From Actinomycetota bacterium (GTDB lineage Bacteria > Actinomycetota > Thermoleophilia > Solirubrobacterales > Solirubrobacteraceae): 14,807 nt of DNA. The stretch spans positions 1 through 14,807 of the forward strand of contig VAYD01000023.1 in assembly GCA_005883905.1 (NCBI GenBank), written 5' to 3'. How positions within the stretch are numbered: the first letter of the stretch is position 1; each line of letters begins with the position of its first letter. Shown piece after piece: positions 1,066 through 14,807 of the stretch. A model generated the notes under the pieces. That model had not been told where the DNA came from. It saw only the letters and a program-made list of their open reading frames with translations, and did no database searches. Both the position numbers and the translations under genes were made by a program.

Positions 1066-2001
1066 CTAGTCGCGCAGCGCCAGCGGCACCGTGCTGAAGC
1101 TCGTCATCTGCGCGAGGTCGTTGACGCGCTCGGAGACCTCGTCGGCGGTCAGGCGCGCGACGCGCTCGGTGCCGAACTCCTCGACGTTGTAGGAGGCCAG
1201 CGCCGTGCCGTAGGCGATCGCCCGGGTGAGGAGCTCGTGGTTGACCGGGTCGCCGGGATGCGCCGCGACATAGCCGGCCAGCCCGCCGGCGAACGTGTCG
1301 CCGGCGCCGGTCGGGTCGATCACGCGCTCCAGCGGATAGGCGGGCAGCGCGAAGAAGCCCTCGTCCGTGATCAGCGCCGCGCCGTACTCGCCCTGCTTGG
1401 CGACGACCGCGCTCGGGCCCCACGAGAGCAGCTCGCGCGCGGCGCGCACGACCGACGGGCGGTTCGTGAGCTGCCGAATCTCGGCGTCGTTCAACACCAG
1501 GCAGTCGACCCGCTCGACGACCTTGACGAGGTCGTCGCGCGCGATGTCGATCCACAGGTTCATCGAGTCCAGCGCGGTCCAGCGCGGGCCGTGGCACTGG
1601 TCGAGCACGTCGAGCTGCAGCGTCGGCTGGATGTTCGCCAGGAACAGCACGTCGCAGTCGCGCGCGGGCTCTGACAGCTTCGGCTCGAAGTGCTCGAACA
1701 CGTTGAGCTGCGTGTCGAGCGTCTCGCGCGAGTTGAGGTCCCACCCGTACTCGCCCGCCCAGAAGAACGTCTTGCCGTCGGGGATGACCTCGACGTCGTC
1801 GGTGATCGTGCCGCGCGTGCGCAGCACGGCGAAGTCCTCGTCGGTGAAGTCGCCGCCGACCGGGCCGACGACGCGCACCTCGTCGAAGAACGAGCCTGCC
1901 AGCGCGAAATGGGTCGCGGCGCCGCCGAGCATCCGCTCGCGCTCGCCGAACGGGGTCTTGACGGCGTCGTACGCGATCGATCCGACGACGGTGACGCTCA
2001 T
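1066..2001 (-). CDS. PfkB-family (ribokinase-like) sugar kinase
   Basis: This 311-residue protein has the PfkB fold signatures in order: GSIAYD at 8-12, the glycine pair MLGG at 24-27 near the substrate pocket, NDAE at 171-174 (the NxxE motif that positions Mg and phosphate), KQGEYGA at 202-208, and the C-terminal signature DPTGAGDTFAGG at 229-240. The usual catalytic base is Asp235. It should transfer the gamma-phosphate of ATP to a sugar or nucleoside hydroxyl in the cytoplasm. The subfamily and substrate cannot be read from sequence. The length is normal and the frame intact. ATG at 2001 is preceded by a TAGGGT -10 box ending 10 nt upstream, with no Shine-Dalgarno sequence. It is divergent from the oxidoreductase at 2082 and shares an 80-nt promoter region with it. 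Confidence 0.85.
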   Translation of the reverse strand: MSVTVVGSIAYDAVKTPFGERERMLGGAATHFALAGSFFDEVRVVGPVGGDFTDEDFAVLRTRGTITDDVEVIPDGKTFFWAGEYGWDLNSRETLDTQLNVFEHFEPKLSEPARDCDVLFLANIQPTLQLDVLDQCHGPRWTALDSMNLWIDIARDDLVKVVERVDCLVLNDAEIRQLTNRPSVVRAARELLSWGPSAVVAKQGEYGAALITDEGFFALPAYPLERVIDPTGAGDTFAGGLAGYVAAHPGDPVNHELLTRAIAYGTALASYNVEEFGTERVARLTADEVSERVNDLAQMTSFSTVPLALRD

Positions 2002-2011
2002 GCGGCGCGGA

Positions 2012-2017
2012 ACCCTA
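2012..2017 (-). promoter_or_regulatory. predicted -10 box TAGGGT for the PfkB kinase
   Basis: On the minus strand TAGGGT ends 10 nt before the ATG at 2001. The expected start site, 7 nt downstream, is near 2005, giving a leader of about 4 nt. No convincing -35 element is seen. It belongs to a recurring start-proximal TANNNT pattern in this window. Confidence 0.4.
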
Positions 2018-2061
2018 GGGGATCAGCAGGGACGCGGGAGTTCACGGCGCAATCCACGCCG

Positions 2062-2075
2062 CGAGCATATGCTCG
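2062..2075. promoter_or_regulatory. 14-bp perfect palindrome over the oxidoreductase promoter
   Basis: CGAGCATATGCTCG is its own reverse complement. It contains the predicted -10 box TATGCT (2068-2073) and ends at the first base of the GGAGGA ribosome-binding stretch (2075-2080). A dimeric repressor bound here would cover the -10 region, so it is a plausible operator. The palindrome is directly visible; the operator role is inference. Confidence 0.4.
2068..2073 (+). promoter_or_regulatory. predicted -10 box TATGCT for the oxidoreductase
   Basis: TATGCT fits TANNNT and ends 8 nt before the ATG at 2082, predicting a start site near 2080. GGAGGA at 2075-2080 lies only 1 nt from the ATG, too close for an efficient Shine-Dalgarno, and would be mostly excluded from such a transcript. 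A leaderless reading is therefore favoured. Confidence 0.45.
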
Positions 2076-2081
2076 GAGGAC

Positions 2082-3035
2082 ATGCGCGCGATCCAGATGC
2101 AGGCGTTCGGCGGGCCCGAGGTGCTCGAGCTCGTCGACATCCCGATGCCCGAGCCGGCCGAGGCCGAGGTCCTGATCAAGGTCAGCCGCGCCGGGCTCAA
2201 CTACGCCGACACGCACCAGCGCACCAACAGCTACCTGGCGAAGGCGACGCTCCCGCTTGTCCCGGGCTCGGAGGTCGCGGGCGTGCGCGAGGACACGGGC
2301 GAGCGTGTCGTCGCGCTCTGCGGCGACGGCGGCTACGCGGAGTACGCGACCGCTCCCGGCGCGCTCACGTTCCCGATCCCCGACGGCGTCGACGACGCCA
2401 CCGCCCTGGCGCTGCTGCTCCAGGGCCTGACCGCGTGGCACCTCTACAAGACATGCGCGCGCGTCCAGCCGGGCGAGACCGTCGTGATCATCGCCGCGGC
2501 CGGCGGCGTCGGCTCGCTGGCGGTGCAGCTCGGCAAGCCGCTCGGCGCGGGCCGCGTGATCGCGGTGGCCTCGAGCGAGTCCAAGCGCGACCTCGCGCTC
2601 GAGCTCGGCGCGGACGCCGTGGTCGACGCCTCGCCGGACGGCCTGGCCGACCGGCTGATCGAGGCGAACCTCGGCGAGCGCGTGGACGCGGTCTTCGAGA
2701 TGGCCGGCGGCCAGGTCTTCGAGGAGTGCATGGCGGCGCTGGCGCCGTTCGGCCGCTGCGTCACCTACGGGATCGCCTCCGAGGAGCCAAACACGGTCCA
2801 GACCGGCGCGCTGATGCGCCGCTCGCACGCGGTCGTCGGCTTCTGGCTGATGCACTGCATCGGGCGCCCGGCGATGATCGACGAGGCGCTGGCCGACCTG
2901 TTCGCGCGCGTGGCGGCCGGCGAGCTGCGCGTGGTCGTCGGTGGCACCTACCCGCTCGACCAGGCCGCGCAGGCGCAGGTGGATCTCCGCGAGCGCCGCA
3001 CCACCGGCAAGGTGCTGCTCGACCCGACGGCCTAG
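2082..3035 (+). CDS. zinc-free MDR oxidoreductase, quinone oxidoreductase (QOR) type
   Basis: This 317-residue medium-chain dehydrogenase/reductase opens with MRAIQMQAFGGPEVLEL, typical of the NADPH:quinone oxidoreductase branch. A GroES-like N-terminal half (about 1-120) is followed by a Rossmann half with the nucleotide-binding motif AAAGGVG at 138-144. The usual zinc ligands of alcohol dehydrogenases (GHE plus the four-Cys lobe) are absent, as expected for QOR/crotonyl-CoA-reductase relatives. It likely reduces a quinone or an activated double bond with NADPH. The end TGKVLLDP is also typical. ATG at 2082 is favoured over the in-frame ATG at 2097 because it keeps the first strand of the fold. 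Its TAG stop at 3033-3035 also forms the start of the next gene's predicted -10 box. The substrate is unknown. Confidence 0.85.
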   Translation: MRAIQMQAFGGPEVLELVDIPMPEPAEAEVLIKVSRAGLNYADTHQRTNSYLAKATLPLVPGSEVAGVREDTGERVVALCGDGGYAEYATAPGALTFPIPDGVDDATALALLLQGLTAWHLYKTCARVQPGETVVIIAAAGGVGSLAVQLGKPLGAGRVIAVASSESKRDLALELGADAVVDASPDGLADRLIEANLGERVDAVFEMAGGQVFEECMAALAPFGRCVTYGIASEEPNTVQTGALMRRSHAVVGFWLMHCIGRPAMIDEALADLFARVAAGELRVVVGGTYPLDQAAQAQVDLRERRTTGKVLLDPTA

Positions 3036-3038
3036 ACT
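3033..3038 (+). promoter_or_regulatory. predicted -10 box TAGACT for the helicase, containing the upstream stop codon
   Basis: TAGACT begins with the TAG stop of the oxidoreductase and ends 9 nt before the helicase ATG at 3048. The predicted start site is near 3045. The 12-nt gap has no Shine-Dalgarno sequence (only GCGGG), so a short-leader transcript or read-through coupling must serve the helicase. Confidence 0.4.
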
Positions 3039-3047
3039 GGCGCGGGC

Positions 3048-4457
<1,410 letters not shown>

Positions 4458-4463
4458 GGCGTC

Positions 4464-4469
4464 TAGGCT
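4464..4469 (+). promoter_or_regulatory. predicted -10 box TAGGCT for the zinc-ribbon protein
   Basis: TAGGCT lies in the 20-nt gap after the helicase stop (TGA 4455-4457) and ends 8 nt before GTG 4478. The predicted start site near 4476 lies downstream of the alternative GTG at 4472, which is why 4478 is preferred as start. The same hexamer with the same 8-nt spacing and GTG start occurs before the HD-GYP gene. Confidence 0.45.
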
Positions 4470-4477
4470 GTGTGAAC

Positions 4478-5473
4478 GTGGACACGCTCGTCCGAGATCC
4501 CCACGCCCCTGCCGACGAGGCGCGCTTCGCGCACAACGAGCAGCCGCCGGCGGAGCAAGCGCCGACGCGCACGTGTGAGCACTGCGGCGCATCGCTGGCC
4601 CCCGGCCAGGACTGGTGCCTGGAGTGCGGGACGGCCGCCCCTGGCCGCCTTGGCCGGCGCCCCGGCATGCGCACGGCCGCGACCGTCGCCGGCCTGACGC
4701 TGGCGCTGGTGGCCGGCGCGGTCACCGCGGGCTACGCCGCGATCAGCGGCGACGCCGGCCGCGAGACCGCCAAGCCGCCCGCCGCCTCCGGCGCGCCGAT
4801 CGCTCAGGCGCCGCCGAGCACGCCGGTCGCGCCGCCGCCGACGACCGCGGCGCCCGCGACGCCCGCGACGCCGCTGCCCACCGTGAAGCCGCCGAAGACC
4901 GCGACGCCCGCGCCGCCCGTGTCGCACCCGTCGACGCCGGCGCCGACCACCAGCACGCCCGCGCCCGCGACGAGCACGCCCACCACGAGCACGCCGGCAC
5001 ACACCACGCCTTCGACGCCCGCAGCGCCCTCGATCGAGCCGGTCGACCTCGGCGCCGACGCCGCGTCGCTGTACGACCCGTACACGCGCTCGACCGCCAA
5101 CAGCGATCCGGCCGACGCCTACGACGGCGACACGACGACGGCCTGGAAGGTCACGACGGTCGGCGACGGGCAGGCGATGCAGGTCGGCCTCGTCGTCGAC
5201 CTCGGCAAGAAGCGCTCGATCAAGCAGCTCAACCTGCGCACCGGCACGCCCGGGTTCCGCATCGAGACCTACGCGGCCGACACCGCGCAGGTGCCCCCCG
5301 ACATCCTCGACACCCGTTGGGCGCACCTGCACAACAAGTCCGCCGTCGCCAAGAGCGACACCGTCGCGCTGGCGAGCGACAGCCACAAGTACCGCTACGT
5401 GCTGCTGTGGTTCACCGCGCCGCCGAAGAAGGGCCCGACCGTGAAGATCAACGAGCTGACGATCCTGGGGTGA
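4478..5473 (+). CDS. zinc-ribbon, single-pass membrane protein with MurJ-type discoidin-like domain
   Basis: From GTG 4478 the protein has 331 residues; an in-frame GTG at 4472 would add two. Order: hydrophilic N-terminus; zinc ribbon CEHC...CLEC with Cys at 33, 36, 47 and 50; one membrane helix at about 66-88; a Pro/Thr/Ala/Ser-rich linker at about 96-185; and a C-terminal beta-rich domain from about 190. The last has AYDGDTTTAW, VGLVVDLGKK, YRYVLLWFT and INELTILG. This pattern resembles the discoidin-like extracytoplasmic domain on actinobacterial MurJ/MviN and some kinases. Topology is probably cytoplasmic ribbon, extracellular linker and ligand-binding domain. The ligand is unknown, possibly cell-wall sugar. 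Five nucleotides separate its stop from the cyclophilin gene, so the two are probably co-translated. The function is not established. Confidence 0.75.
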   Translation: MDTLVRDPHAPADEARFAHNEQPPAEQAPTRTCEHCGASLAPGQDWCLECGTAAPGRLGRRPGMRTAATVAGLTLALVAGAVTAGYAAISGDAGRETAKPPAASGAPIAQAPPSTPVAPPPTTAAPATPATPLPTVKPPKTATPAPPVSHPSTPAPTTSTPAPATSTPTTSTPAHTTPSTPAAPSIEPVDLGADAASLYDPYTRSTANSDPADAYDGDTTTAWKVTTVGDGQAMQVGLVVDLGKKRSIKQLNLRTGTPGFRIETYAADTAQVPPDILDTRWAHLHNKSAVAKSDTVALASDSHKYRYVLLWFTAPPKKGPTVKINELTILG

Positions 5474-5975: not shown

Positions 5976-5981
5976 TTATCC

Positions 5982-7535
5982 ATGGCCGGTACGGAGGAAC
6001 AGGCTGCCCCTGAGGCAGCCGCGACGAATGGCCACCAGGCGGGGCAGGTTCCCGTCGAGAATCCCGCCACGGGCGAGGTCGTCGCCCACGTGCCGAACCT
6101 GTCCGCGGACGAGGTCCGCGACATGGCCAAGCGCGGGCGCGCCGCCCAGCCGGGGTGGGAGGCGCTCGGGTTCGCCGGCCGCGCGCGCGTGATGCTGCGC
6201 ATGCAGAAGTGGCTCCTCGACAACGCCGAGCGCGTCATCCAGACGATCGTCAAGGAGACCGGCAAGTCCTGGGAGGACGCGCAGCTCGCCGAGATCTCCT
6301 ACGGCGCCAACGCGTTCGGCTTCTGGGCCAAGAACGCCGAGAAGTACCTCGGCGACGAGAAGGTCAAGTCCAGCGCCGTGCTCGTCAAGGGCAAGAAGCT
6401 GATGGTCCGTTACCGGCCGCTCGGCCTGATCGGCGTCATCGGCCCGTGGAACTACCCGCTGACGAACTCGTTCGGCGACTGCATCCCGGCGCTGATGGCC
6501 GGCAACAGCGTGATCCTCAAGCCGTCGGAGATCACGCCGCTGACGAGCATGCTGATGCTCGAGGGCCTCAGGGAATGCGGCATGCCGGAGAACGTCTTCC
6601 AGGTCGCGACCGGCTACGGCGAGACCGGCGCCGCGCTCGTCGACGAGGTCGACATGATCATGTTCACCGGCTCGACCGCGACCGGCAAGAAGGTCATGCA
6701 GAAGGCCGCCGAGACGCTGACGCCGGTGTCGCTGGAGCTCGGCGGCAAGGACCCGATGATCGTGCTGTCCGACGCCGACCTCGAGCGCGCCGCGAACGCC
6801 GCGACCTACTACTCGATGCAGAACTCCGGCCAGACCTGCATCTCGGTCGAGCGCGTCTTCGTCGAGGAGCCCATCTACGACGAGTTCGTCGCGAAGGTGA
6901 CCGAGAAGGTCAAGGCGATCCGCCAGGGCGATCCCTCCGGCGGCGCGGGCACCGTCGAGGTCGGCTCGATGACGTTCCCCAAGCAGGTCGACATTGTCGA
7001 GAAGCACGTCAATGACGCCCTCGCCAAGGGCGCAAAGGCGCTCACCGGCGGCCACCGCGGCTCGGGCAAGGGCTACTACTTCGAGCCCACCGTGCTCGTC
7101 GACGTCACGCCCGAGATGGACTGCATGCGCGAGGAGACGTTCGGCCCGACGCTGCCGATCATGAAGGTGCGCGACGCCGAGGAGGCCATCCGGCTGGCGA
7201 ACGACTCGCCGTACGGGCTCGCGGCGTCGGTGTTCTCCAAGGACGTCGGCCGCGGCGAGGCCGTGGCGCGGCGCATCGAGGCCGGGGCGGTCTGCGTCAA
7301 CGACGCAATGCTCAACTACTCGGCGATCGAGCTGCCGATGGGCGGCTGGAAGGCCTCCGGGCTCGGGCATCGCCACGGCGCCGGCGGCATCCGCAAGTAC
7401 TGCGCGCAGCAGGCGCTGCTGGTCTCGCGCTTCAACATGAAGCGCGACCTGCACATGTTCCCCTACACCAAGAAGAACACCGACCGCCTGATGAAGGCGT
7501 TCAGGTTCCTCTGGGGTCGCGGCAAGCGGGACTGA
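5982..7535 (+). CDS. aldehyde dehydrogenase family protein, succinic-semialdehyde-dehydrogenase-like
   Basis: The 517-residue protein has a full ALDH active site: GPWNYPL with Asn157, LKPSE with Lys180 (cofactor), FTGSTATG at 228-235, LELGGKDP with general base Glu252, NSGQTC with nucleophile Cys286, and EETFGP at 384-389. It oxidises an aldehyde to an acid with NAD(P)+ in the cytoplasm. The region MVRYRPLGLIGVIGPWNYPL is close in style to mycobacterial GabD2-type succinic semialdehyde dehydrogenases, but conserved residues do not settle the substrate. An unusual basic tail (about 480-517, ending FRFLWGRGKRD) extends past the catalytic domain. The first 25 residues are a low-complexity Ala/Glu-rich lead. 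The last 35 nt overlap the convergent small gene. The enzyme class is certain; the exact substrate is not. Confidence 0.9.
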   Translation: MAGTEEQAAPEAAATNGHQAGQVPVENPATGEVVAHVPNLSADEVRDMAKRGRAAQPGWEALGFAGRARVMLRMQKWLLDNAERVIQTIVKETGKSWEDAQLAEISYGANAFGFWAKNAEKYLGDEKVKSSAVLVKGKKLMVRYRPLGLIGVIGPWNYPLTNSFGDCIPALMAGNSVILKPSEITPLTSMLMLEGLRECGMPENVFQVATGYGETGAALVDEVDMIMFTGSTATGKKVMQKAAETLTPVSLELGGKDPMIVLSDADLERAANAATYYSMQNSGQTCISVERVFVEEPIYDEFVAKVTEKVKAIRQGDPSGGAGTVEVGSMTFPKQVDIVEKHVNDALAKGAKALTGGHRGSGKGYYFEPTVLVDVTPEMDCMREETFGPTLPIMKVRDAEEAIRLANDSPYGLAASVFSKDVGRGEAVARRIEAGAVCVNDAMLNYSAIELPMGGWKASGLGHRHGAGGIRKYCAQQALLVSRFNMKRDLHMFPYTKKNTDRLMKAFRFLWGRGKRD

Positions 7536-7842
7536 GCTCCGCCGGCAGCGGCACGTCCCACTCGAAGACGATCTCGACCGGCGCCCGCTCCAGGGCGCCG
7601 GCGGGGAGCTCGAAGTCGTCGTAGTCGTCGGCGACGTCGTCCTGCGCCCACTCGATGACCGTCTCGAGGTCGGGGTCCTCGGGCGTGGTCCCCAGCACCG
7701 GCGGGCCAAGCAACCGTTCGACGTGGCCGTCGCCGAAGCGAAGGTCGGCGAACGGCAGGCCGACGACATGCATCTCCGGCCCCAGGGTCTCGGCGGGGAT
7801 CTGCACGATCGCGCCGCGGCGCAGGAGGGTCACCTCGGTCAT
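7501..7842 (-). CDS. small acidic protein of unknown function
   Basis: I do not recognise a family. The 113-residue product has no signal peptide, membrane helix or metal motif. The first part (MTEVTLLRRGAIVQIPAETL) is probably a beta strand and turn. The middle is strongly acidic (WAQDDVADDYDDFELP), and the end is Pro-rich. Codon use is normal for the window and the position makes sense: it lies 20 nt downstream of the receiver gene on the same strand. It has its own TAGCGT box 6 nt before the ATG and could also be read from the signalling transcript. Its 3' end overlaps the end of the convergent aldehyde dehydrogenase gene by 35 nt. It is a likely real gene, but this rests on frame, start context and neighbours rather than homology. 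Confidence 0.6.
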   Translation of the reverse strand: MTEVTLLRRGAIVQIPAETLGPEMHVVGLPFADLRFGDGHVERLLGPPVLGTTPEDPDLETVIEWAQDDVADDYDDFELPAGALERAPVEIVFEWDVPLPAELSPACRDPRGT

Positions 7843-8931: not shown

Positions 8932-11250
8932 TCCGCCCTCGAGCAGGTTCAGGACGGCTGCGCCGGCGTCGTCGAGCTCGACCGGGTCGGCGTGCAGGCG
9001 CGCCAGGCCGGGCGCGGCATCACCGGTCGAGAACACGACGACGCTGCGCTGCAGCCGGCGGCCGCGCAGATCCAGGGCGGCGAGCGCGTTCTCGGCGTGC
9101 GCGAGCCCGGCGTCGACGAGCGCGACCTCGAAGTGGCGCTGCTGGCACAGCCGCGCCGCCGCGCCCGAGCTCGTCGCCCACTCGTGCTCGATCCCGAGCT
9201 CGGCGAGCCGCGGCTCGAGCTGGTCGCGTGTCTGGTTGCGGCCGACGACGAGCACGCGGACGCGGCCGGCGAGCAGCGCGGCGCCGAGCGCGTCGACCAG
9301 CTCGTCCGCGTCGATCGGCTTCGCCACGACCCACTCGCCGGCGAGCGCCTCGTTGCCGGAGAAGACCGAGACGACGACGACCGGCAGCCCGCGCAGCTCG
9401 GGGTCCGCGCGCAGCTGGCGCAGCACTTCGAAGCCGCTCATGCCGGGCATCAGGATGTCGAGGGTGACGGCGTCGAACGGCTCGGCGCGCAGGCGTTCGA
9501 GCGCCTCGGTGCCGGAATGCGCCACCGCGGCGTCGATCTCGAACGGCTGCAGGCGCGTCGCGATCAGGCGCGCGATCGCCGGCTCGTCGTCGATCACGAG
9601 CACGCGCTTGCCGCGCAGGGCCTCGCGCGGCGCCAGGCGCTGCCGGCCGGCCGGCGCCGGCGCCTTGGGGATCAGCACGGTGAAGCACGAGCCCTCCCCG
9701 GGCGCGGTCTCGAGGTCGACGCGCCCGTCGTGCAGCTCGACCAGCGACTGGACGATCGCCAGGCCGAGGCCGCTCCCCGGCCCGTTGCCGTCGCCCGCCC
9801 GGTAGAAGCGGTCGAACGCGTGGCGCGCCTCCTCCTCGGTCATCCCGCGCCCGGTGTCGGCCACGTCGAGCGCAACGTAGTGGCCGTCGTCGCGCGCTGC
9901 GAGGGTCAGCGTCCCGCCCTTGTCGGTATAGAGGTGCGCGTTCGTCAGCAGGTTCGTCAGCACCTGGCGGATGCGCGCCGGGTCGGCGAGCGCCGGCGGC
10001 AGCTCGGCGGGCAGCTCGAGTTCGAGCCGCTGCTGCTTGCCGTCCACGCGCGGCCGCATCAGCGTGGCGACCTCGTCGATCACCTCGCGCAGGTCGGTCG
10101 CGCGCAGGTGGACCTCGGCGCGGCCGGCTTCGACGCGGGCGACGTCGAGCAGGTCGTTGACGAGGTCGACGAGCCGGTTCGTCGACACCGTGATGATCTG
10201 GGTGAACTCGCGCTGGCGGTCGGATAGCGAGTCATCGGCGGCCAGCAGCTCGATGAAGCCCTTGATCGAGGTGAGCGGGCTGCGCAGCTCGTGCGAGGCG
10301 GTCGCGATGAACTCCGACTTCAGTCGCTCGAGCCGGGCGCGCTCGGTCGCGTCGCGCACCGTCCAGACGATGCTCGAGTCGCCGGCAAGCCGCGCGGCGG
10401 TGAGCTCGAGCGTGCGGCCGCCGTGCTCCATGGTGACCTCGCGGCCGAGCGCGTCGGGCGCGGCCGGCAGGGCCGAGGGGTCGGGCACGAGGAACGTGGC
10501 GCGCTCGTTGGTGTGCTCGACCGAGCCATCGGGCGCTACGACGAGCAGGCCGTCGTTGAGCGAGCGGATCGTCGTATCCAGGCGCGCGCGTTCGGCCTCG
10601 ATCCGGCGGGTCGCGGTCTCGAGGTCGGCGGCCATCGCGTTGAACGAGCGGCCGAGCGCGCGCAGCTCGCCGGGGCCGCTCTCGCGCACGCGCGCGCTCA
10701 GGTCGCCGGCGGCCAGCCGGCCGGTGGCGCCGACCAGCTCGTCGAGCGGCCGTCTGAGCGAGGCGACGAGCGTCGCCACCAGGGCGAGCGCCGCGAGCAG
10801 CGCGAGCAGGCCGCCCGCGACGACCACCGCCACGGCGCGGCGTGTGTCGTGGCGCGCGGTGCGGCGGGCGGCGGCGAGGCGGTTCTCCTGGCGGGCGGAC
10901 AGGGCCGCGGCGGCCGCGCGCGCGGTGCTGCCGCCGCCGGCCGCGCGGTCGACGAGCTGCTCGCTGCGTGTCTCGCTGCGGGCCAGGCGGCGCGCATGTG
11001 CGATCTCGACGTCGAACGCCTGGCGCGCCTGCGCCGCGCGCGGCGTCGCGCGCGCCGCCTCGGCGACGACGCCGGCGGCGAGCAGCCGTCCCGCCGACGC
11101 CTGCAGGCCGTAGGCGTTCGCGAGGCGGTCCTCGTAGTCCTGGCGCGCGGAGTACAGCCCGGCGACCCCCAGCCCGGCGATCACGGCGAGCACCAGCGCG
11201 AGCCCCAGCAGTGCCACGCGCAGGGAGCGCGCGATCGACAGCCTTCCCAC
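8929..11250 (-). CDS. hybrid sensor histidine kinase with HAMP, PAS-like, HisKA, HATPase and two receivers
   Basis: Layout of the 773 residues: membrane helix 1 (about 11-33); an Ala/Arg-rich extracytoplasmic helical sensor (34-138); helix 2 (139-163); HAMP (164-216); a short PAS-like segment (about 225-303); HisKA with His320 (ATASHELRSPL); HATPase with N437 (NLLTNA), DTGRGM (465-470) and GSGLGLAIV (492-500); receiver 1 (about 548-660) with Asp554-Asp555, Asp598 (TLDILMPG), Ser628 and Lys644; and receiver 2 (665-770). Receiver 2 lacks the acidic pair and the conserved Lys and keeps only Asp713, so it is probably a pseudo-receiver. It would sense an envelope or soluble signal and pass phosphate to the downstream receiver/HD-GYP pair. 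The start is GTG 11250, 7 nt after a TAACGT box. The signal is unknown. Confidence 0.92.
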   Translation of the reverse strand: MGRLSIARSLRVALLGLALVLAVIAGLGVAGLYSARQDYEDRLANAYGLQASAGRLLAAGVVAEAARATPRAAQARQAFDVEIAHARRLARSETRSEQLVDRAAGGGSTARAAAAALSARQENRLAAARRTARHDTRRAVAVVVAGGLLALLAALALVATLVASLRRPLDELVGATGRLAAGDLSARVRESGPGELRALGRSFNAMAADLETATRRIEAERARLDTTIRSLNDGLLVVAPDGSVEHTNERATFLVPDPSALPAAPDALGREVTMEHGGRTLELTAARLAGDSSIVWTVRDATERARLERLKSEFIATASHELRSPLTSIKGFIELLAADDSLSDRQREFTQIITVSTNRLVDLVNDLLDVARVEAGRAEVHLRATDLREVIDEVATLMRPRVDGKQQRLELELPAELPPALADPARIRQVLTNLLTNAHLYTDKGGTLTLAARDDGHYVALDVADTGRGMTEEEARHAFDRFYRAGDGNGPGSGLGLAIVQSLVELHDGRVDLETAPGEGSCFTVLIPKAPAPAGRQRLAPREALRGKRVLVIDDEPAIARLIATRLQPFEIDAAVAHSGTEALERLRAEPFDAVTLDILMPGMSGFEVLRQLRADPELRGLPVVVVSVFSGNEALAGEWVVAKPIDADELVDALGAALLAGRVRVLVVGRNQTRDQLEPRLAELGIEHEWATSSGAAARLCQQRHFEVALVDAGLAHAENALAALDLRGRRLQRSVVVFSTGDAAPGLARLHADPVELDDAGAAVLNLLEGG

Positions 11251-11257
11251 GGCGGGA

Positions 11258-11263
11258 ACGTTA
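11258..11263 (-). promoter_or_regulatory. predicted -10 box TAACGT for the hybrid kinase
   Basis: TAACGT on the minus strand ends 7 nt before GTG 11250, predicting a start site one nucleotide before the start codon. It overlaps the forward box at 11262-11267 by two bases. The 24-nt gap between the two start codons has no room for separate ribosome-binding sites. Confidence 0.45.
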
Positions 11264-11267
11264 CGCT
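11262..11267 (+). promoter_or_regulatory. predicted -10 box TACGCT for the Pro-rich membrane protein
   Basis: TACGCT is followed by 7 nt (CCTTTTT) and GTG 11275. The predicted start site is 11274, so the mRNA would be essentially leaderless. Its -35 region would lie inside the kinase's first codons. Confidence 0.45.
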
Positions 11268-11274
11268 CCTTTTT

Positions 11275-11766
11275 GTGGTCCAGAGCTGGATCCGCCAGGC
11301 GCTGCGCGCCTCAGGGGTGGCGATCCTCGTTCCCGCGGCGATCGTGGCCGCGATCGCGCTGTCGGTCGTGGACGGCGGCGGCAGCGCCCGCTCGCTCGGC
11401 CAGGTGCTCACCGGCCCGGCCGCGCCGCCGGCCGAGGCGTCGCCGCCGCCGCCCGAACACACGCGCCGCGACGTGAGAATCAGGGGTCAGACCCCTCATT
11501 CTCATGGCCCGCGCCGCACGCCGATCACGACGCTGCCCGATCGGCGCCCGTCGCGGGTTCCGCCGAGCACTGCGCCGGCGCCCTCTCCGACCGCGTCGCC
11601 CGCGCAGCAGTCGCCGAGCGCGCCACCGCCTTCGGCTCCGACGCCGAACCCGATCCACGACACCGGCACGCAGGTCGCCGAGACCGTGCGGCCGCTCCCG
11701 GTCGCCGGCCCGGTCGCCGCCAATGCCGTGGAGGCCGTCGTCGACCTCGTCGATCCGCCCATGTAG
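11275..11766 (+). CDS. small membrane-anchored proline-rich protein, unknown function
   Basis: GTG 11275 to TAG 11764-11766 gives 163 residues. Residues 1-11 are basic, about 12-32 form a membrane helix (GVAILVPAAIVAAIALSVV) with no signal-peptidase or lipobox site I can identify, and the rest is an extracytoplasmic Pro/Ala/Ser/Thr-rich chain. The last part (HDTGTQVAETVRPLPVAGPV, then NAVEAVVDLVDPP) resembles the repeated Val/Gly/Thr tails of secreted proteins in this group. Residues 67-77 are encoded by a 31-bp palindrome that looks like an inserted REP-type element, and the frame is kept across it. The frame is open far upstream, but that part is antisense to the kinase; the -10 box and the hydrophobic N-terminus support 11275. 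No known family is recognised. It is divergent from the kinase and could share its regulation. Confidence 0.6.
   Translation: MVQSWIRQALRASGVAILVPAAIVAAIALSVVDGGGSARSLGQVLTGPAAPPAEASPPPPEHTRRDVRIRGQTPHSHGPRRTPITTLPDRRPSRVPPSTAPAPSPTASPAQQSPSAPPPSAPTPNPIHDTGTQVAETVRPLPVAGPVAANAVEAVVDLVDPPM
11474..11504. repeat. 31-bp REP-like palindrome around GGGGTC-A-GACCCC
   Basis: Left arm TGAGAATCAGGGGTC, a single central A, right arm GACCCCTCATTCTCA. Fourteen of the 15 pairs match, with one C:C mismatch. The outer arms are AT-richer than anything nearby. The short direct repeats GCGCCGCGACG (11463-11473) and GCGCCGCACG (11511-11520) flank it, though in such GC-rich DNA these may be chance. The shape resembles palindromes mobilised by REP-associated tyrosine transposases. 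I saw no second copy in the window. Confidence 0.6.
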
Positions 11767-11775
11767 GCGGGCTGA

Positions 11776-11781
11776 CAGGAT
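11776..11781 (+). promoter_or_regulatory. possible -10 box CAGGAT for the EamA transporter
   Basis: CAGGAT ends 6 nt before GTG 11788, placing the start site on the first base of the start codon. It departs from TANNNT at the first base, so it is the weakest of the series. Confidence 0.25.
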
Positions 11782-11787
11782 CATGGC

Positions 11788-12624
11788 GTGGGCATCGTCT
11801 TTGCACTCGCCGCCTCAGCCGCGTGGGGATCCGCCGACTTCATGGGCGGCATCAAGTCGCGCACGTACTCCGCGATCGCCGTGCTGTTCACGATCGAGAT
11901 GTCGGGGTTGGTGCTTGCCTTGGTCGTCCTCGCCGTCGTCCAGGACCCCTTCCCATCGACGCGCGCGACGCTCTGCGCGATCGGCGCCGGGGCGGCAGGC
12001 ATCATCGCCCTCGCCGCGTTCTACCGGGCGCTGGCGATCGGGACGATGTCGATCGTCGCGCCCATCAGCGCGACCGGCGTCGCGCTGCCGGTGATCGTCG
12101 GGATCGCGACGGGCGACCGCCCGAGCCCCGTGGTCGTGTCCGGCCTCGTCATCACGACGCTCGGCGTGATCCTCGCCTCGCGCGAGGTGCACGAGGACGT
12201 CGACCAGGCTGCGGTCGCCCGGATGAGCGTCGTGCTTGCCCTGCTCGCGGCGATCGGCTTCGGCACGTACTTCATCGGTGCCGACGTCGCCGCAGACGAC
12301 TCGGTCATCTGGACGATCCTGCTCGGGCGGCTGGTGGCGATTCCACTCATCGGCGGCGCGTTGCTCGTACGTGGGGCGACGCTGCCGCGCGGCGGGGACC
12401 TCGTGGTCCTCTGCATCGCCGGTTGCGGCGACCTCATCGCGACCGGCCTCTATGGCCTCGCCAACACCCACGGCGCCCTGAGCATCGTGTCTGTCGTCGG
12501 CAGCCTCTATCCGATCGCGACGATCCTGCTCGCGCGGGCGGTCCTGCACGAGCGCGTCCGCCGCGTGCAGGCTGCCAGCGTGTTCGCGGCCCTGACGGGC
12601 GTAGCCTTGATCGCCGTGGGATGA
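11788..12624 (+). CDS. EamA/DMT-superfamily transporter
   Basis: The 278-residue product is almost entirely hydrophobic, with about ten predicted membrane helices in two repeats. It starts MGIVFALAASAAWGSADFMG, a typical EamA beginning with a small-residue-rich first helix. The first repeat contains AAFYRALAIGTMSIVAPISA and the second ANTHGALSIVSVVGSLYPIA, the duplicated helix pair expected of drug/metabolite transporters. A hydrophilic linker (REVHEDVDQ) separates the halves. It exports or imports a small metabolite; the substrate cannot be told. GTG 11788 is chosen because the nearby ATG at 11783 is in another frame. Its TGA overlaps the ATG of ctaG (ATGA at 12621-12624), so the two are co-transcribed and translationally coupled. 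Confidence 0.88.
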   Translation: MGIVFALAASAAWGSADFMGGIKSRTYSAIAVLFTIEMSGLVLALVVLAVVQDPFPSTRATLCAIGAGAAGIIALAAFYRALAIGTMSIVAPISATGVALPVIVGIATGDRPSPVVVSGLVITTLGVILASREVHEDVDQAAVARMSVVLALLAAIGFGTYFIGADVAADDSVIWTILLGRLVAIPLIGGALLVRGATLPRGGDLVVLCIAGCGDLIATGLYGLANTHGALSIVSVVGSLYPIATILLARAVLHERVRRVQAASVFAALTGVALIAVG

Positions 12625-13491
12625 CGTTCGAGCTCGCCCACGTCGGGGGCGGGACGTTCGCCCCTCTGCAGCTCCTCCCGGCGACGATCAGCGGCGTCCT
12701 CTACGCGCTGCGCGCGCACCACCTGGAAAACACGCCGCGCGCCGTCCCGCACTGGCGCCAGACCTGCTTCTACGGCGGCCTGACGCTCGCGGTCGTCACG
12801 CTTGCGAGCCCGCTCGGCCACATCAGCGACGAGCTGTTCCTCGCGCACATGGTCGAGCACCTGATCCTGTCCGACATCTGCGCGCTGCTGCTCGTCCTTG
12901 GGCTCACCGGCCCGCTGCTCGCGCCCGTCCTGCGCATCCGCCTCTTCGACCGGATGCGCGTCCTCACGCACCCGTTCGTCGCGCTGCCGCTGTGGGCGAT
13001 CAACCTCTACGCCTGGCACATCCCGGCGCTGCACGAGGCCGCGGTGCGCCACGGCGGTGTCCATGCGCTGCAGCACCTGCTGTTCATCACGCTCGGCGCG
13101 AACATGTGGATGTGCCTGTTCGGGCCGCTGCCGAAGCCCGCCTGGTTCGGCAACTTCGCGCAGCTCGGCTACATCATCTCCGTGCGCCTGATCGGCGCCG
13201 TCCTGGCGAACATCTTCGTGTTCGGCGGCAACGCCTTCTACGACGTGTACGCCAAGGGCGAGGCGTTCTGGAAGATCAGCCCCGCCGGCGACCAGAACGC
13301 GGCCGGCGCGATCATGATGGTCGAGGAGTCGATCCTCACGATCTGCCTGTTCGCGTGGCTGTTCGTCAAGGCCGCGCGCCAGTCCGACGAGCGCCAGGAG
13401 CTGCTCGAGCTGGCGCAAGCGCGCGGCTACGACGGTCGCCGCCGGGCGCGGCGCGGACCTGCGCGCGCGGATCGAAGCAGGCTCGCGCTAA
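12621..13491 (+). CDS. ctaG: CtaG-like cytochrome c oxidase assembly protein, frame broken near the 3' end
   Basis: About 271 residues read normally: several membrane helices with conserved histidines (His67, HMVEH at 76-80, His133, His138, HALQH at 148-152) and the helix after SVRLIGAVLANIFVFGG. These fit the caa3-type CtaG family, thought to help insert copper into the oxidase. After ELAQARGYD (about 13433) the frame goes wrong. One base over, the sequence reads TVAAGRGADLRARIEAGSR and stops at TAA 13489-13491, a charged tail typical of the family and lying at the end of the convergent GAF gene. Without a shift, the frame stays open to 14669, opposite two genes. The coordinates given assume the shift. 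Causes could be a sequencing error, a natural mutation or, less likely, programmed frameshifting. Losing the cytoplasmic tail may not abolish function. Confidence 0.8.
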
Positions 13492-14000
13492 CTCGCGCGC
13501 GCCCGTTCGAGCCGGCGCCGCTCGATCTGCTTGGAGACCGCTGCGGCGAGCTCGCGCAGCGCGTCGGCCTGCTCGTCGCTGAGGCCGCGCGGCGCGGCGT
13601 CGATCACGCACAGCGTCCCGATCGGGTAGCCGTCGGGCGTGAAGATCGGCGCGCCGGCGTAGAAGCGGATGTTCGGGTGCTCGGTGACGAGCAGGTTGTC
13701 GGCGAAGCGCTCGTCCTCGCGCGTGTCGGGCACGATCGTCAGGTCGTCGGGGTTGAGGATCGCGTGGGCGCAAAAGGCGAGGTCGCGGTCGGTGGACTCG
13801 AGCTCGAGGTTCACGCGCGCCTTGAACCACTGGCGCGCCTCGTCCACGAGCGTGATCACGGCGATCGGGGCGCCGGTCGCCTCGGCCGCGCGGCGCACGA
13901 GCTCGTCGAACTCCTCTTCCGGTTCGGTGTCGAGGATCTCGAGCTCACGCAGCGCTCGAAGGCGCTCCTCCTCGTTCGGGGGAAGGTCCGCCGCTGGCAT
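13488..14000 (-). CDS. GAF domain protein
   Basis: The 170-residue protein is one GAF domain (about 28-160) with a short N-terminal helix. Recognisable segments are LEILDTEPEEEFDELVR, VITLVDEARQWFKARV, DLAFCAHAIL, VPDTREDERFADNLLV and IRFYAGAPIFTPDGYPIGTL followed by CVID. This subgroup is often found at the front of GGDEF, kinase or phosphatase proteins; here it stands alone. The ligand is unknown; Cys77 and Cys131 are present, but no chromophore-binding motif is evident. ATG 14000 directly follows the TAG of the HAD gene (TAGATG), so translation is probably by re-initiation. Its TAG stop overlaps the shifted-frame TAA of ctaG. Confidence 0.88.
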   Translation of the reverse strand: MPAADLPPNEEERLRALRELEILDTEPEEEFDELVRRAAEATGAPIAVITLVDEARQWFKARVNLELESTDRDLAFCAHAILNPDDLTIVPDTREDERFADNLLVTEHPNIRFYAGAPIFTPDGYPIGTLCVIDAAPRGLSDEQADALRELAAAVSKQIERRRLERARAS

Positions 14001-14612
14001 CTAGCTCAATGCTACGCCGAGCAGGTCTTCCAGCTGGACGATGGTCTGCTCGGCGTCGGTGTGCAGGACCGTGGCCATCCCGAGCTCCTTCGCGGGCTTC
14101 AGGTTGAAGCCCAGGTCGTCGACGAACACGCACTCGTCAGGCGCCAGACCGACCGCCTGCGCGCCCATCGCGTAGATCTCCGGGGCGGGTTTGCGGATGC
14201 CCACGACGCCGGAGATCACGACGCCGTCGAACAGCTCGTCCATGAGCTGCCGCGGGTAGCGGTCCACGCCCCAGGAGTTCGAGATCAGGCCGGTGCGGAT
14301 GCCGGCGTCGCGCGCGGCCTTCACCGCGCCGAGCATCCGCGCGTCGGGCGCGCTGCCGGCGAACAGCCGCTCGACGAGGCCCTCCTCGTCGACGCCGAGC
14401 ATCGCGGCGAAGCGCCGCTCGAACTCGCGCTCGTCGACGCGCCCGCACTCGAACTCGATCAACAGGTCGCGCGCGGCCTCGTCGGAGCGGAACAGGTCGC
14501 GCACCTTCGCGGCCTCGAGGCCCTCGGCTTCGCAGAACGACGCGAACGAGGCGAACAGGTCGGTCGTCAGCACGCCGCCCCAGTCGGTCAGCAGGCCGCG
14601 CCTACTCGCCAC
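14001..14612 (-). CDS. HAD-superfamily hydrolase-like protein with Asp-to-Gly change in motif I
   Basis: The 203-residue protein has a HAD core with a helical cap (about 18-85). Motif I reads LLTDWGGVLT: nucleophile Asp10 is kept, but the general acid/base at position 12, usually Asp, is Gly. Motif II is LISNS (Ser111), motif III is RKPAPEIY with Lys141, and motif IV is VFVDDLG with Asp165/Asp166. The DWGGVLT form is seen in the subgroup that includes the N-terminal domains of ACAD10-like proteins, so phosphatase activity is uncertain. GTG 14612 lies inside the end of the upstream phosphotransferase gene (11-nt overlap), and the GAF gene follows at once. A role with that phosphotransferase is likely. 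Confidence 0.88.
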   Translation of the reverse strand: MASRRGLLTDWGGVLTTDLFASFASFCEAEGLEAAKVRDLFRSDEAARDLLIEFECGRVDEREFERRFAAMLGVDEEGLVERLFAGSAPDARMLGAVKAARDAGIRTGLISNSWGVDRYPRQLMDELFDGVVISGVVGIRKPAPEIYAMGAQAVGLAPDECVFVDDLGFNLKPAKELGMATVLHTDAEQTIVQLEDLLGVALS

Positions 14613-14807
14613 GGGTCAGCGCCTCCGCGCGCTCGGCCAGCTGCACGACGCCCTCGCCGAAGCCCTTGAGGTACGGGTCGTCGGTGGCGCCCGCGACCGC
14701 GCGCTTGTAGTTGCCCTCCATGAACACGATCGACTTCCACAGCGCCAGCGTCTGGTACCAGCGGATGTCGGTCATCGAGCGCCCCGAGCGCTCCTCGTAG
14801 CGGGCGA
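14602..14807 (-). CDS. APH-fold phosphotransferase, C-terminal end (continues past the right edge)
   Basis: Reading leftward from the window edge, 67 codons end in TAG at 14602-14604. The visible tail ARYEERSGRSMTDIRWYQTL, then ALWKSIVFMEGNYKRAVAG, then DDPYLKGFGEGVVQLAERA matches the C-terminal helices of the aminoglycoside-phosphotransferase/ACAD10-11 kinase-like family, where an IRWYQ-type helix and a KxxxxxEG segment are common. The catalytic HxD and DxD motifs lie outside the window. Known relatives phosphorylate hydroxyacyl-CoAs or small metabolites; antibiotic resistance is not implied. Its 3' end overlaps the HAD gene by 11 nt, showing one operon. The family call rests on the tail only. 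Confidence 0.65.
   Translation of the reverse strand, partial: ARYEERSGRSMTDIRWYQTLALWKSIVFMEGNYKRAVAGATDDPYLKGFGEGVVQLAERAEALTRGE

Follow-up and report, generated by a model that had tools for sequence, protein, structure and literature searches.

A 26-nucleotide lesion near the end of a ctaG gene probably opens a long antisense reading frame by accident

The ctaG gene described here raises the question of why its reading frame continues far past the point where the gene should end. In the window (the whole stretch of 14,807 nucleotides that was analyzed), the open frame begins with an ATG at position 12621 and ends with a TGA at 14667-14669, a total of 682 codons. From residue 272 onward, Arg and Ala are abundant in the predicted product (15% each). 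The first-pass annotation described a frame that is CtaG-like to residue 271 and then open to 14669, and both the frame and a Pfam search bear this out. We estimate a probability of about 93% that a lesioned ctaG gene and the local codon usage make the 682-codon ORF by accident, and that its antisense part is no gene.

Residues 1-271 are encoded in the normal frame by positions 12621 to 13433 of the plus strand, as indicated by their Pfam match, their identity to a database protein and their third-position GC content. Pfam profile PF09678 (Caa3_CtaG) matches residues 26-253 with an E value of 4.6e-46 and 157.6 bits, where the cut-off of 27.7 bits defines membership in the family. Nearly the entire profile of this family, to which Bacillus subtilis CtaG belongs, is represented, with positions 1-236 of 237 covered. 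According to the relevant passages of two reports (PMC9145763, PMC13344008), Caa3_CtaG proteins have several membrane spans, ctaG of B. subtilis is required for active cytochrome caa3, and the gene has been tentatively assigned to assembly of the copper site of cytochrome c oxidase. Judged by its sequence, the product of the window gene is predicted to be an assembly factor of this family. The nearest named relatives found, in a search that may omit very near records, are from Solirubrobacterales assemblies (for example L063, at 69% identity). The forward frame of ctaG is also open upstream of the gene, from a GTG at 10842 to 14669 (1275 codons); this extended frame begins opposite a histidine kinase gene and then passes through EamA and ctaG.

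The best database match, protein P0001, has 298 residues and is identical to the window product over residues 1-271. After this point, P0001 carries nine residues that are absent from the window, followed by 18 residues that are identical to the translation of another window frame. Specifically, positions 13435-13488, read one base over, encode VAAGRGADLRARIEAGSR, and a TAA follows at 13489-13491. This remaining natural end of ctaG (13435 to 13491, plus strand) overlaps the stop codon of the convergent GAF gene (13488-13490). The nine residues of P0001 are represented in the window by a single base, 13434, and so the window is short by 26 nucleotides, a count derived from the P0001 protein sequence and the window codons. 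The lesion can therefore be placed at 13433 to 13435, a location that agrees with the spacing observed in relatives. The proposal that ctaG is frameshifted just past residue 271 and has its natural end one frame over, at 13491, was correct, as demonstrated by the match with the 18 C-terminal residues of P0001. However, the accompanying estimate of one extra or two missing bases does not hold. The 26-nucleotide gap equals two missing bases only modulo 3, and a one- or two-base error is thus ruled out as the whole explanation.

P0001 represents 13 member sequences and is recorded for two contigs, neither longer than 3436 bases. Its source entry is a dash, the mark given to proteins of the window itself, and the protein may come from the same sample. 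Because a matching intact protein exists in the databases, the window appears to carry an ordinary lesion, either real or an assembly error. When the intact sequence is used as a query against the window's own genome, the match is split in two, with the parts lying in different frames. A second, intact copy of ctaG was not found in this assembly, which is 65% complete. The genome does carry two distant CtaG relatives that are 45% and 33% identical.

Comparison with close CtaG relatives confirms the shift and indicates what has been lost. The tail stretch, defined by a looser pattern, occurs at fixed spacing in all 120 listed proteins (P0001-P0120, the closest 120 of 5174 proteins below an E value of 1e-60) and at all 29 orthologous loci checked (L004-L032, the top matches among 60 relatives searched). 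The same looser pattern is present in only six of the 13 longer proteins P0121-P0133. Of the 133 proteins, 109 contain a strict tail motif and 86 fit a strict spacing pattern, all with a spacing of 13. Another pattern matches 115 of the 120 proteins, and a poorly built spacing pattern matches six of the 29 loci. Proteins P0002-P0014, with 87-93% identity to the query, have lengths of 296-299 residues. Inspection by eye reveals that the tail pattern G-9-R[AT][VA]x[AS]G is absent from the continuous frame of the window, whose sequence past residue 271 is different.

A genus search offered no other genome for comparison, and a family search yielded some match in 143 of 146 genomes. All 73 of its non-self matches with E values below 1e-90, counted by eye with one per genome, extend to query residue 293-298 in a single frame without a stop, whereas the window matches in two frames. 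The missing residues include R276, A277, R279 and A280 (P0001 numbering), which are invariant in 30 aligned proteins that we selected from the 120 listed. Thus, the window gene differs from these Caa3_CtaG relatives in that its end is shifted and the core of the conserved tail is absent. The lost tail lies beyond the Pfam match and, as judged from these alignments, is conserved in the relatives examined. The intact tail gives only a sub-threshold Pfam match to Nif11 (18.4 bits, with a cut-off of 23.8).

These comparisons suggest how the long ORF probably arose. Loss of 26 nucleotides within the codons for the conserved C-terminal tail shifts the reading frame into the register antisense to the two genes behind ctaG. 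One is the convergent GAF-domain gene (13488 to 14000, minus strand; Pfam GAF, E value 6.5e-18) and the other is a HAD-family hydrolase gene (14001 to 14612, minus strand; Pfam Hydrolase, E value 5.8e-11). The shifted frame then meets no stop for 411 codons, given that these genes hardly use TTA, CTA or TCA.

The accidental part of the frame, 411 codons plus the TGA, occupies positions 13434 to 14669 of the plus strand. The codons of the GAF and HAD genes on the minus strand line up exactly with those of the ctaG frame, and stops in this antisense register arise only opposite TTA, CTA or TCA. These three codons account for four of the 4574 codons in 15 window genes, and for none in the GAF and HAD genes. 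The contig has a GC content of 72%. The long run without a stop is therefore explained by the exact codon register together with the near-absence of these codons. In 2000 simulated 375-codon genes, assembled at random from 3771 codons that came from 11 genes of the window (excluding GAF, HAD, 2-910 and 7501-7842), the in-register antisense frame is fully open in 69% of cases, whereas the other two antisense frames are open in 1.5% and 0%. Thus, the simulations show that the openness of the frame is to be expected. Its length is not beyond chance: the frame is no longer than codon usage predicts, whereas a case for an overprinted gene would demand a longer one. Among relatives of the HAD gene, the antisense frame lacks a stop over the matched stretch at ten of 14 loci and has a stop at four; this count omits the second copies L036, L038, L043 and L051 and the partial match L063.

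The tail shows no sign of coding. Its third-position GC is 296 of 411 codons, compared with 264 of 271 for ctaG and 16 of 18 for the shifted end. On their own strand, the GAF and HAD genes have values of 159 of 170 and 195 of 203, respectively. No Pfam match is listed within the antisense tail at an E value threshold of 10. We therefore infer that the long 682-residue product is without function. The frame had been described as antisense to the GAF gene, which is correct, and to most of the HAD gene, which is an understatement. It spans the entire HAD gene as called and 57 nucleotides beyond before it ends; the next minus-strand gene (stop codon at 14602-14604) is in another register. Other long frames lie opposite ordinary genes in the window, including 864 codons at 1998-4592 and 597 codons at 5976-7769, both on the minus strand.

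Such shadow frames are a known feature of GC-rich genomes. PMC3454372 reports the view of Merino et al. (1994) that they are frequent and result mainly from codon usage, and also cites Silke (1997). The authors of PMC3454372 themselves argue that long shadow frames exceed their statistical model and may be selected. The window frame resembles these examples in being a long stop-free stretch opposite real genes, due here to codon usage, but differs in that the lesion fuses it to a real gene.

If the long frame encoded a maintained protein, relatives of that protein might be expected. A search with the complete 682-residue product, in which 8000 candidates were scored, produced 13 matches, of which none is a CtaG carrying this tail. 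Twelve are confined by BLASTP to query residues 13-277, the CtaG part. The remaining one, P0129, is not a CtaG protein and matches residues 305-454 at 75% identity, within the part opposite the GAF gene. The terminal stretch of P0129 resembles a GAF gene translated from its opposite strand, and so the same accident seems to have happened independently in this protein. Its match is of the kind expected when a conserved gene is read in antisense. For the 120 closest proteins, matches to the continuous frame extend no further than residue 294. As judged by the 13 matches, the long product is not conserved in relatives. By eye, P0126, P0130, P0132 and P0133 resemble frame-damaged CtaG predictions. 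Another of the longer proteins, P0127 (627 residues), combines CtaG with COX2 and cytochrome c domains, and is either a genuine fusion or a further case of an accidental frame.

The first-pass annotation regarded the 682-residue product as a false fusion and proposed that relatives sharing the unshifted frame and a long extension would speak against this view. No such relatives were found in the proteins, loci and genomes searched, and the judgement is strengthened by the expected openness of the frame. For the same reasons, a real gene fusion was dropped as a candidate. A true fusion or an overprinted antisense gene would account for the 682 open codons, but this openness is expected from codon usage, no CtaG with the tail has been recovered, and the tail has a weak third-position signal and no listed Pfam match, which together make this reading very improbable. 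Less probable still, in our estimation, would be a true and maintained allele that yields a CtaG of 682 residues, of which the final 411, encoded opposite the neighboring genes, are a newborn C-terminal extension in the process of arising. It had also been suggested that the organism might make a CtaG with a foreign tail, for which we found nothing in favor, or might use frameshifting. Programmed ribosomal frameshifting to recover the natural end of ctaG is compatible with the presence of that end one frame over. However, no shift can supply the 26 absent nucleotides, in relatives the end lies in one frame with the rest of the gene, and no slippery heptamer was seen when the sequence at 13420-13445 was read by eye. 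This mechanism therefore finds no support and its chances are close to nil. The preferred explanation is that the long ORF looks like an ordinary lesion combined with a codon-usage effect, and not like a new gene.

Under this explanation, the odds that the lesion is a real allele rather than an artefact are about even. The loss might be confined to the assembly or stem from erroneous reads, whether chimeric or GC-skipping, where coverage is low, while the gene of the organism is intact, a scenario to which we give a one-in-two chance. Consistent with this scenario, the matching intact P0001 is found on two other contigs, which cannot be the window's own 14807-base contig given their maximum length of 3436 bases. 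In addition, the genome is fragmentary (556 contigs, 64.75% complete), and positions 13400-13500 are 78% GC. Against an assembly error, there is no direct repeat at the junction, and the stretch folds no better than shuffled sequences (z 0.00). Moreover, no internal break was noticed in the 14 other genes used for codon counts, nine of which were analyzed with Pfam, with gene 2-907 giving no match.

The 26-nucleotide loss could instead be a true deletion in the strain or in part of the population, a tentative reading to which we assign somewhat less than an even chance. This deletion would deprive the protein of the core of its conserved tail, give it a foreign one and probably constitute a poorly working or dead allele. 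No direct repeat of at least eight bases occurs in 13380-13520, and, with P0001 taken as the parent, only a single base is common to the two breakpoints, as judged from codons. Repeat-driven collapse requires a repeat, and so some read probably spans the junction. The two distant CtaG relatives in the genome might soften the loss of ctaG. However, a true deletion must be reconciled with the invariance of the four lost residues noted above and with the existence of an intact, otherwise identical protein. Two specific causes were considered and rejected: a hairpin at the lesion, on account of its unremarkable folding, and a repeat-mediated loss, on account of the missing direct repeats. Four inverted repeats are listed in 13380-13520.

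The gene neighborhood has features of its own. At 13998-14003, the TAG of the HAD gene abuts the ATG of the GAF gene in the same frame, an arrangement that suggests coupled translation. Among loci L001-L071, many of which extend just ~1.4 to 1.5 kb past ctaG, a GAF match is found only in L001 and L033, both of which are the window itself. The loci L005, L006, L007 and L011 lack a GAF match; there, the HAD match comes after ctaG at a distance of 33 to 321 bases. Thus, the GAF gene between ctaG and HAD appears to be a lineage-specific insertion. At the edge of the contig, another gene (14602-14807, minus strand) is strongly conserved, with up to 88% DNA identity in relatives, and adjoins HAD in each of the 14 distinct loci where HAD is matched in full. 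Its 67 residues in the window give no Pfam match, and the gene may encode the end of an APH-like phosphotransferase.

For GC-rich assemblies, this locus illustrates that a small lesion near the end of a gene can yield a long and plausible but false fusion, because an antisense frame aligned codon on codon with real genes is almost free of stops. The example of P0129, with its terminal stretch resembling a GAF gene in antisense, indicates that such products enter the databases. If the lesion is real, the window gene would provide a natural test of the role of the conserved CtaG tail.
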